Shown here: piece by piece, positions 3,060 through 5,076 of the stretch
Numbering within the stretch: the stretch's first letter is position 1
Layout: every line of letters begins with the position of its first letter
Source: an uncultured Bacillota bacterium
Lineage (GTDB): Bacteria; Bacillota_I; Bacilli_A; Erysipelotrichales; Erysipelotrichaceae
Length of the DNA stretch: 18,486 nt
Assembly: GCA_946619805.1 (NCBI GenBank)
Contig: CAMOMM010000002.1
Span: 1 to 18,486 of the forward strand
Direction: 5' to 3'
Program-made: the position numbers and the translations under genes
The notes under the pieces: generated by a model
What the model saw: the letters and a program-made list of their open reading frames with translations, nothing else
The model's database searches: none
Told to the model about the DNA's origin: nothing

Positions 3060-3093
3060 ATATCAAGTATACTTGTAAGTGAGAGGTATCAAC

Positions 3094-4575
3094 ATGTTAA
3101 CAATATCAATAGCGATGGATGAGAACAAGGGCATCGGCATCAAAGGCCGGCTGCCATGGCATCTGAAGGAAGAACTGAAACTCTTTAAGAACAATACTGT
3201 GGGAAAGACCATTCTGATGGGTCAGACTACCTATGACGGATTACCGCGCAAGCTGAAGGACAGACATACTGTTGTCTGTTCAATCGATCCTGAATACAAG
3301 GTTGATGATCCTGATGCAGAGGTCACCTATGACCTGATGAAGTTCCTCAACGAGAAGGAATTCAGTGATGATGAGGTAATTGTCTGCGGGGGAGCATCAA
3401 TTTACCGTCAGGCTTATCCGTTCTGTCATAAAGCGCTCATTTCCTTTGTAAAGGGAGACTATGAAGTAGACACTCATTTTGACGTCTTTGACATGAATGA
3501 CTGGGAAATTGTCAAAGAGGTTGAATACGAAGATTTCATCTACCGTGAAATGAACCGTAAAAAGAGCGGCAAGCGGGTCTTTGTGACCGGATGCTGCGGC
3601 TACATCGGTTCACATACGACAGTGGAACTGCTCAATGACGGCTATGATGTTGTCGGTCTGGATAACTTCAGCAATTCCCAGCCGGAAGTACTGGACAAGA
3701 TCACCCGGATCACCGGTAAGAAGGTGAAATTCTATGAAGGCAACATGCTGGACAGAGAGCTGCTGGAAAGGATCTTTGATGAGAATGACATCGGAGCGGT
3801 AATTGACTTTGCGGCATACAAGGCTGTCGGTGACAGTGTCAGAAAGCCGGTGGAATACTATACCAACAATGTCAGCAGTGTTCTGGTGCTGTTAAGTGTA
3901 ATGAAGGAAAAGAATGTCAAGTCAATCGTGTTCTCAAGCTCTGCTACGGTATACGGTGAGAATAATCCGATCCCTTATGTTGAGACCATGCCTATTGGCG
4001 GAACGACCAATCCATACGGTACCTCCAAGGTGTTTGTTGAACAGATCCTGAAAGATCTCTGTTTCGCTGACAAATCATTTAATGCCTGCATCTTAAGATA
4101 CTTCAACCCGATCGGCGCTCATGAAAGCGGCCTGCTGGGTGAAAATCCTAATGGGGTACCGGCTAACCTGATGCCTTATATTGACAAGGTTGCCTTAGGC
4201 AAGCTGGAAAGACTTAACATCTTCGGTGATGACTATCCTACCAAGGACGGTACCGGGGTAAGAGACTATATCCATGTTGTTGACCTGGCCAAGGTACACA
4301 TCAAGGGTCTCAAGAAGATCGAACATAAGAAAGGCAGTTATTATGTCTATAACATCGGTACCGGTGTCGGCTACAGCGTTCTGGATATTGTAAAAGCCTA
4401 TGAAAAGGTCAATGACATTACCATTCCATATGTCATAGCTCCAAGAAGACCGGGAGATCTGCCGGAATACTACGCTGATTCCAGCAAGGCTCAGAAGGAG
4501 CTTAACTGGCATACCGAGAAGACACTGGAAGACATGTGCCGAGACTGTTACAGATTTGTATTAAACTGCAGATAA
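3094..4575 (+). CDS. Dihydrofolate reductase-UDP-glucose 4-epimerase fusion
   Basis: One open frame of 493 residues encodes two complete enzymes. Residues 1-156 are dihydrofolate reductase (NADPH-dependent reduction of dihydrofolate): GIGIKGRLPWHL (13-24), acidic active-site Glu27, Thr46, folate-binding Arg57, CGG (98-100) and the final DTHF...DW strand region. Residues 157-493 are GalE (UDP-glucose/UDP-galactose epimerisation, bound NAD): Rossmann loop TGCCGYIGSH (165-174), SSSATVYG (281-288) and the catalytic Y308-x3-K312. The linker is only a few basic residues (NRKKSGKR). No stop, frame change or good ribosome site separates the halves. An in-frame ATG at 3550 could give separate GalE but lacks a clear Shine-Dalgarno. 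The ATG at 3094 is preferred over GTG 3079 because GAGAGGT lies at 3081-3087. I know of no standard fusion of this kind. Confidence 0.9.
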   Translation: MLTISIAMDENKGIGIKGRLPWHLKEELKLFKNNTVGKTILMGQTTYDGLPRKLKDRHTVVCSIDPEYKVDDPDAEVTYDLMKFLNEKEFSDDEVIVCGGASIYRQAYPFCHKALISFVKGDYEVDTHFDVFDMNDWEIVKEVEYEDFIYREMNRKKSGKRVFVTGCCGYIGSHTTVELLNDGYDVVGLDNFSNSQPEVLDKITRITGKKVKFYEGNMLDRELLERIFDENDIGAVIDFAAYKAVGDSVRKPVEYYTNNVSSVLVLLSVMKEKNVKSIVFSSSATVYGENNPIPYVETMPIGGTTNPYGTSKVFVEQILKDLCFADKSFNACILRYFNPIGAHESGLLGENPNGVPANLMPYIDKVALGKLERLNIFGDDYPTKDGTGVRDYIHVVDLAKVHIKGLKKIEHKKGSYYVYNIGTGVGYSVLDIVKAYEKVNDITIPYVIAPRRPGDLPEYYADSSKAQKELNWHTEKTLEDMCRDCYRFVLNCR

Positions 4576-4584
4576 ATCAATTAT

Positions 4585-4619
4585 GACTGAAACAGAAGCT
4601 TTGTTTCGGTCTTTTCTTT
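4585..4619 (+). terminator. Rho-independent terminator after DHFR-GalE
   Basis: GACTGAAACA (4585-4594) pairs with TGTTTCGGTC (4602-4611), a 10-bp stem with one G-T pair and a 7-nt loop, followed by CTTTTCTTT. The next gene starts only 20 nt beyond. Confidence 0.85.
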
Positions 4620-4638: not shown

Positions 4639-5076
4639 ATGAAGATCTACATAGCAGCTCCGCTGTACTGCGACTATGAAAGAGAGTACAATCGGAGCAT
4701 TGATGAACTGTTAAGAAAAAACGGGTATGATACCTATCTGCCGCAGAGAGATGGCGGAGTGGTGAGTGAAATGCCTGATTACATTGACGGTATTCCAAAG
4801 GACCGTTATGTCTTTGAAAAGGACATTGCCGCCATGAACAGCTGTGACATTTTCCTGTTTCTGCTGGATGGCAGAGTTCCTGATGAAGGGGCATGCGTAG
4901 CACTGGGATATTTTCATGGAACAGGAAAGCCGGCAGTAGGACTTAAGACAGACAGCCGTACTCTCTGTCAGGGACTGGATAACCTGATGATCCGCATGGC
5001 TCTGGACAGAATATGTCTGAACAAAGATGAACTGTTACGGTTTCTGGCAGAGTTAAATCAGAAAGGAAGGAAATGA
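4639..5076 (+). CDS. Nucleoside 2-deoxyribosyltransferase-like protein
   Basis: A 145-residue protein of the nucleoside 2-deoxyribosyltransferase superfamily, which exchanges or hydrolyses bases on deoxyribonucleosides during salvage. The family fold is shown by the start MKIYIAAPLY, DIAAMNSCDIFLFLLDGRVPD split across residues 62-82, and GKPAVGLKTDSR (96-107). Residues 82-90 read DEGACVALG. In characterised members the equivalent of Ala88 is the nucleophilic Glu (usually ELG), so activity may be lost or altered. The ATG at 4639 with AGGGG (4626-4630) is chosen over the TTG at 4618, which lies in the terminator. One base separates its stop from the next ATG, so they are cotranslated. DHFR upstream gives a loose deoxynucleotide theme, but a terminator intervenes. 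Confidence 0.75.
   Translation: MKIYIAAPLYCDYEREYNRSIDELLRKNGYDTYLPQRDGGVVSEMPDYIDGIPKDRYVFEKDIAAMNSCDIFLFLLDGRVPDEGACVALGYFHGTGKPAVGLKTDSRTLCQGLDNLMIRMALDRICLNKDELLRFLAELNQKGRK

Follow-up and report, generated by a model that had tools for sequence, protein, structure and literature searches.

Dihydrofolate reductase fused in frame to UDP-glucose 4-epimerase in uncultured gut bacteria

The fusion gene and its two halves

The analysed stretch of DNA (the window, 18,486 nucleotides of contig CAMOMM010000002.1 from an uncultured Erysipelotrichaceae bacterium) carries one open frame on the forward strand at 3094..4575, which runs from an ATG at 3094 to a stop codon at 4573-4575 without any inner stop and encodes a protein of 493 amino acids. 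This protein consists of a complete dihydrofolate reductase (DHFR; PF00186, residues 2-146) followed by a complete UDP-glucose 4-epimerase (GalE; TIGR01179, residues 161-489). The gene and its flanks comprise the following features:

3081..3087, + strand: ribosome-binding site GAGAGGT, with an anti-SD duplex of -7.1 kcal/mol
3094..3561, + strand: DHFR half, residues 1-156, assigned by the PF00186 match, conserved residues and a separate domain in the structure model
3562..3573, + strand: linker KSGK, residues 157-160, without a stop and without a conserved start codon plus ribosome site
3574..4572, + strand: GalE half, residues 161-493, with catalytic S283, Y308 and K312 and gate residue Y459
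4573..4575, + strand: stop codon TAA, from reading the frame
4585..4611, + strand: terminator-like hairpin of 12 pairs, then TTTTCTTT, a consensus match only

Anti-SD duplexes of -7.1 to -9.0 kcal/mol precede the start in all five fused loci examined. Three matches to the terminator consensus were found between 2900 and 5500 on both strands, and shuffled sequence gives a mean of 1.9 (sd 1.5). At the join the protein reads R155-K156-(KSGK)-R161-V162-F163-VTG, that is, with a basic linker of about four residues. The first-pass annotation had described two full-length halves joined in a continuous frame by a few basic residues, with neither a stop nor a good ribosome site in between, and this description holds: the halves score 125 bits (DHFR_1) and 414 bits (TIGR01179) with intact catalytic residues, and a scan of five fused loci revealed no internal start at the join that is both conserved and preceded by a ribosome site. 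The run of A given there as 3553-3563 had to be corrected, as the real run comprises only five bases (3559-3563, AAA AAG) and is not conserved, the corresponding bases being AAA AGA in loci L003 and L004.

On the 5' side, the fusion gene is neighboured by glucosamine-6-phosphate-isomerase-like, hexapeptide-repeat, MarR and HAD-hydrolase genes, on the 3' side by a nucleoside 2-deoxyribosyltransferase gene (PF05014, 64 bits; 4639-5076) and a short ORF that no Pfam model matches. By eye, the 2-deoxyribosyltransferase gene also follows the fusion in L061 (genome G225) and L033/L064 (G226), and it is missing there in L034 and L065. A link of this neighbour to deoxynucleotide metabolism is possible.

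The DHFR half scores 125.3 bits against the DHFR_1 profile (cut-off 25) and covers positions 2-143 of its 159. W22, E27, T46, R57, G99 and G100 are kept in all 15 fused rows of the alignment, and the GGASIY motif occupies residues 99-104. We take E27 to be the equivalent of the catalytic acid D27 of E. coli DHFR, and W22 and G99-G100 to be DHFR functional residues and the cofactor GG motif, respectively; in 53 free DHFR relatives, position 27 is Glu in 47 and Asp in six. An AlphaFold model of the fusion (pLDDT 89, pTM 0.88) shows the DHFR half as a separate beta/alpha domain. In a fold search of the PDB, GalE-like structures over residues 154-493 filled all of the best 50 of 1000 rows, while in a viral structure library both DHFR and epimerase models were matched. 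Judged by its profile match and conserved residues, the DHFR half is predicted to be a working NADPH-dependent dihydrofolate reductase.

The GalE half reaches 414.4 bits against TIGR01179 (cut-off 262.3; profile positions 1-325 of 332) and 441.9 bits against the GalE model NF007956 (cut-off 394), also on residues 161-489, and it belongs to the GalE fold. Its Ser-Tyr-Lys triad (S283, Y308, K312) is kept in all 15 fused rows; in E. coli GalE, the catalytic triad is Ser124, Tyr149 and Lys153, as given in PMC6668579. A working UDP-glucose 4-epimerase acting on UDP-Gal and UDP-Glc is thereby predicted. The galactokinase model gave no match over its cut-off in any of the six genomes searched (four fused, two unfused; weaker matches in five), and the GalE half is therefore not assigned to growth on galactose here.

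The residue at the Tyr299 position of E. coli GalE sets, together with others, the use of UDP-Glc versus UDP-GlcNAc (PMC10482301 and PMC6668579). In the window this gate residue is Y459 (4468-4470), and an assignment to the group 2 enzymes with dual UDP-Glc/UDP-GlcNAc use was rejected because these are recognised by a small gate residue (Cys or Ser). The closest solved relative by sequence, bGalE of Bifidobacterium longum (6k0g/6k0i, 433 bits), is a group 2 GalE with Cys299 at the sugar pocket (PMC6668579), whereas the window has Tyr, as in the group 1 enzyme of E. coli. Across the 15 fused rows the gate is Tyr in nine, which form the window's group, Cys in three and Met, Ser and Leu in one each; in 35 sampled free GalE relatives it is Cys in 34 and Asn in one. 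Sugar specificity has likely changed inside the fused clade, and this one residue predicts that the GalE of the window would prefer UDP-Glc/UDP-Gal and that the free relatives would be broader.

Relatives, copy number and folate context

Searching related genomes for the same architecture, as the first-pass annotation had advised, proved productive. A search of 5.8 billion proteins found DHFR-GalE in 32 clusters (P0001-P0032, the window's included) at 70-100% identity and with lengths of 480-498 amino acids (four of the 32 at 480-486, one named partial). By the tool's count, 99 contigs in sum stand behind these clusters, of which some hold as many as 12 and 44, and contigs carrying the fusion reach 224 kb. 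All 32 are joined at the same DHFR end with the frame open, in two linker lengths, and the DNA at the join varies from species to species without loss of the frame. Named genome contigs with the fusion are SIG225 and RGIG2297 (goat duodenum), both labelled Erysipelotrichaceae, and RGIG6836 (sheep rumen), the record of which is labelled Lachnospiraceae. Within the genus of the window the fusion occurs in four of nine genomes (G000, which is the window's own assembly, G225, G226 and G232), and among the matches listed, sorted by score, these same four are the only carriers in the 315 genomes of the order. In two further genomes of the genus (G227, G228) folA and galE are separate and do not adjoin. 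Pairwise dN between five loci amounts to 0.005-0.17 for the DHFR and 0.013-0.20 for the GalE half at dS values from 0.61 to saturated; purifying selection on both halves is strong.

These relatives decide the question whether a base-call or assembly error has joined two neighbouring genes. The fragmented assembly of the window (267 contigs, 68% complete) and the short A run at the join would have made such an error conceivable, but 32 clusters with an open frame at the same DHFR end, two of them with 12 and 44 contigs, exclude one confined to a single assembly, and the join DNA differs between species with the frame kept. Consistent occurrence of two separate genes, divided by a stop, in related strains, which the first-pass annotation had named as refuting the fusion, is not what the fused clade shows. 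The chance of such an artefact is negligible, the earlier judgement that this is a genuine fusion and not a sequencing error is supported, and the DHFR-GalE fusion is confirmed as real.

It is worth mentioning that each of the four fused genomes has exactly one PF00186 match and exactly one TIGR01179 match over the cut-off, and that both are the fusion. Weaker galE-model matches number 3, 3, 7 and 2 in G000, G225, G226 and G232, the best of them scoring 146 against the cut-off of 262. A second free-standing folA or galE, which had been proposed as a check, was thus not found over the cut-off in these four genomes, with counts that rest on incomplete MAGs (68, 83, 95 and 97% complete).

Thymidylate synthase ThyA turns methylene-tetrahydrofolate into dihydrofolate, and DHFR is therefore expected alongside it. 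ThyA was found in seven of the nine genomes of the genus, including three of the four fused ones (G225, G226, G232), and was not found in the 68% complete G000. ThyX, as a stand-in that would make DHFR dispensable, is ruled out by its absence from all nine. The unfused G229, G230 and G231 have no DHFR match by Pfam or subfamily profile; G229 is also without ThyA, whereas G230 and G231 possess ThyA but not ThyX, so that the presence of ThyA becomes a weaker argument for a need of the fused DHFR. This gap may reflect an unrecognised alternative, or the assemblies may miss the DHFR gene.

Two ThyA types occur in the genus, one of 290 amino acids (G225/G226; L051, L052), which is like that in the thyA-folA neighbours described below, and one of 282 amino acids (G230/G232/G227; L054, L055, L056), encoded near a gene that by eye resembles type III pantothenate kinase. 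The galE of G229 (L006) is interrupted by two stops inside the match, and it lies among genes similar to those around the uninterrupted galE of G227.

Origin of the fusion and its kin

The phylogeny of the GalE halves was obtained by a quick method from 76 rows, in which 13 of the 32 fused clusters are represented and P0033 and P0053 were retained. All 13 fused proteins form one clade (SH-aLRT 98) that also contains the latter two, owing to which three label changes are needed on the tree. P0033 is a GalE preceded by the final stretch of DHFR alone, perhaps through truncation at a contig end. The unfused P0053 is chimera-like, with a start nearly identical to P0031 and the rest from another subgroup, and the same applies to the DHFR P0160, which is nearly identical to P0031 over its first ~103 residues and resembles another DHFR group in the remainder; both appear to be either assembly chimeras or recombinants. 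In a first DHFR tree (81 rows: the 13 fused clusters plus P0127-P0134 and P0137-P0179 of 120 listed free DHFRs, leaving out P0135, a cut copy of the fused P0023), the unfused P0160 groups with P0031 (96/96) and P0032 stands apart. In a second one (65 rows, with P0160 and 15 near-copies also left out), the fused rows fall into two groups, with P0031/P0032 apart from the others, and one clade is recovered in 8% of 200 bootstrap trees.

A single origin of the DHFR-GalE fusion is favoured, while several independent fusions are a possible but clearly less probable course of events. The occurrence of linkers in two lengths (RKKSGKRVFVTG as against ERKKSIFVTG and ERKPTALVTG), the separate placement of P0031/P0032 and the repeated changes seen among the DUF362 fusions of this DHFR family speak for several events; they are opposed by the single, well-supported clade of GalE halves and by the AU test, in which one clade of fused DHFR halves is not rejected (p 0.173).

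Other partners are joined to the same DHFR subfamily. Searches with the DHFR half retrieved fusions to DUF362 (P0121, P0122, P0125) and to a GNAT acetyltransferase (P0123, P0124, P0126), and a search of short proteins one to a glutaredoxin-like partner (P0136); Pfam confirms one of each kind. Their DHFR parts are 57-74% identical to that of the GalE fusion, and the partners, which are unrelated, are attached after the same DHFR C-terminal stretch, which ends in R-K or, in P0124 and P0126, in R-N. The DUF362 fusions require two changes on the tree, gains or losses, with starred branches forcing two in the second DHFR tree and one in the first. In L083 and L086 an unfused DUF362 gene lies 114 and 111 bases after folA in the order thyA-folA-DUF362, and the fused DHFR-DUF362 genes of L067 and L072 occupy the same place behind thyA, whereas the GalE fusion does not lie behind thyA in the loci read. 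The folA gene of this family has thus merged with a downstream neighbour repeatedly, a recurrence that speaks for gene order plus deletion instead of a special partnership between DHFR and GalE.

Among 30 DHFR loci fetched by profile (L058-L087; four DHFR-GalE fusions and 26 others), 22 have a thyA-like gene, named by eye and of the kind to which PF00303 matches in L051 and L052, that ends at or slightly inside the DHFR frame start. In G225 and G226 the 290-aa ThyA is encoded away from the fusion, the next gene there being pyrimidine-nucleoside phosphorylase-like (by eye). Neighbour orders read by eye in relatives are thyA-folA, LCP-like gene-folA-glycosyltransferase-like and folA-scpA-like. 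The second of these is found in G227, where one folA lies between LCP-family-like and glycosyltransferase-like genes, the start of the latter overlapping the folA stop (by eye); this folA and the galE of this genome share contig C90 and strand at a distance of ~15 kb, with glycosyltransferase-like genes beside both. In G228 (L045), folA is followed after 22 bases by scpA-like and scpB-like genes (by eye). None of the genomes seen has folA directly 5' of an unfused galE, and the G227 arrangement is the nearest thing to a precursor found. On this basis, folA would have left the thyA-folA arrangement usual among the relatives read and come to lie upstream of galE, where a deletion would have removed the folA stop and the spacer; the fusion probably arose once and would have been inherited since.

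A probable bifunctional chain

Since no copy of either enzyme was found besides the fusion, one protein very probably does two unrelated jobs, folate recycling and the conversion of sugar building blocks for the cell surface, and we consider it probable that the gene encodes a genuine bifunctional enzyme, one chain with a working DHFR at the N-terminus and a working GalE at the C-terminus. From one start codon, a chain of 493 residues with both enzymes would be made, each half of which would fold and work like its free relatives. The DHFR half would use NADPH to reduce the dihydrofolate left by ThyA, and the GalE half would hold a tightly bound NAD+ and interconvert UDP-Gal and UDP-Glc. The usual dimerisation of GalE would turn the fusion chain into a dimer carrying two DHFR units. 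Substrate channelling would not be expected, because the two pathways share no intermediate, so that the most likely arrangement is two enzymes working independently within the same chain, which would probably dimerise as GalE does, without channelling.

That the one frame yields two proteins, by internal initiation, a programmed frameshift or proteolysis at the linker, is unlikely. The linker is basic, and an ATG at residue 153 (154 in L005) exists in four of five loci; however, no ribosome site precedes it in any of them (+0.6 to +0.9 kcal/mol), L034 does not have it, and P0027-P0029, P0031 and P0032 have Leu instead. The GTG at 164, present in three of five loci, has a weak site (-3.3 to -4.9 kcal/mol) that falls within the coding background of these loci (5th percentile -5.9 to -6.5 kcal/mol). 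Further candidates lie inside one of the halves, namely an ATG at 134/135 within DHFR (four of five loci, 0.0 to +0.3 kcal/mol), a GTG at 177/178 within GalE (four of five, -2.2 to -3.1 kcal/mol), a GTG at 131 in L004 (+0.5 kcal/mol) and, in L003 alone, a GTG at 125 within DHFR with a strong 5' match (-8.6 kcal/mol). As to frameshifting, the A run is not conserved and the -1 frame past the join closes after 1-25 codons in the five loci. The +1 frame closes after 6-7 codons in all five, and a +1 shift would release the DHFR, but this stop comes from the Val-Thr codons of GalE's own motif. For want of a conserved signal, programmed frameshifting and internal initiation at the join were rejected, with the constant +1 closure as a caveat.

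Very unlikely, in turn, is a protein in which only one half is active and the other a passenger, e.g. with the DHFR as a folding or dimerisation aid. The three unfused genomes without a DHFR match suggest that DHFR may be dispensable in the genus, but the catalytic residues are complete in both halves of all 15 rows, dN is very low relative to dS in both, and G225, G226 and G232, in which no DHFR other than the fusion was found, contain ThyA. For the bifunctional enzyme, the reason for the join is a further matter. A reading in which it was kept for use, with a change of the epimerase gate and the DHFR C-terminus as a docking point, is doubtful. DHFR units mounted on a GalE dimer would then fix the ratio of the enzymes, stabilise them or co-localise nucleotide and cell-envelope precursor synthesis; the join would have gone along with the gate change (Cys in 34 of 35 free versus Tyr in nine of 15 fused proteins), and GalE, DUF362, GNAT and glutaredoxin would have been mounted repeatedly on a favoured DHFR C-terminus.

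Fusions of either enzyme to other partners are known. In DHFR-thymidylate synthase of protists and plants, DHFR likewise precedes a second enzyme in the same chain, but the two catalyse consecutive steps, whereas DHFR and GalE share no metabolite. The DHFR half (residues 1-182) also matches positions 1-181 of 505 of NF001751/PRK00478 (segregation/condensation protein A) with 64.6 bits, far below the model cut-off of 436; this model, which we take to represent the DHFR-ScpA fusion of mycoplasmas, resembles DHFR-GalE in joining a bacterial DHFR to an unrelated gene and differs in the partner. On the GalE side, Gal10 of Saccharomyces cerevisiae (PDB 1z45) is an epimerase-mutarotase whose partner acts in the same Leloir pathway and sits C-terminally, while the partner here belongs to another pathway and is N-terminal; a Gal10-type protein was rejected, as no mutarotase domain is among the eight Pfam matches of P0001. 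The first-pass annotation knew of GalE-mutarotase fusions and of none to DHFR, in line with our finding no description of DHFR-GalE in the open-access literature searched, a search mostly outside subscription journals. Passages of PMC3675766 name galE genes and DHFR separately. To the extent of these searches, DHFR-GalE joins known enzymes in a new combination.

For five of the 32 clusters a source name is given, and this is only 'UDP-glucose 4-epimerase GalE', so that pathway reconstruction based on annotation overlooks the DHFR. In many of the known fusions between metabolic enzymes, the partners catalyse steps of the same pathway, and a fusion is commonly taken as evidence of two proteins working together. 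In this group of uncultured gut bacteria, apparently the sole DHFR forms one protein with the sole GalE, the two sharing no metabolite, and both kin DHFR fusions and unfused neighbour pairs are at hand, which makes the system a natural test of whether a fusion reflects function or records gene order.
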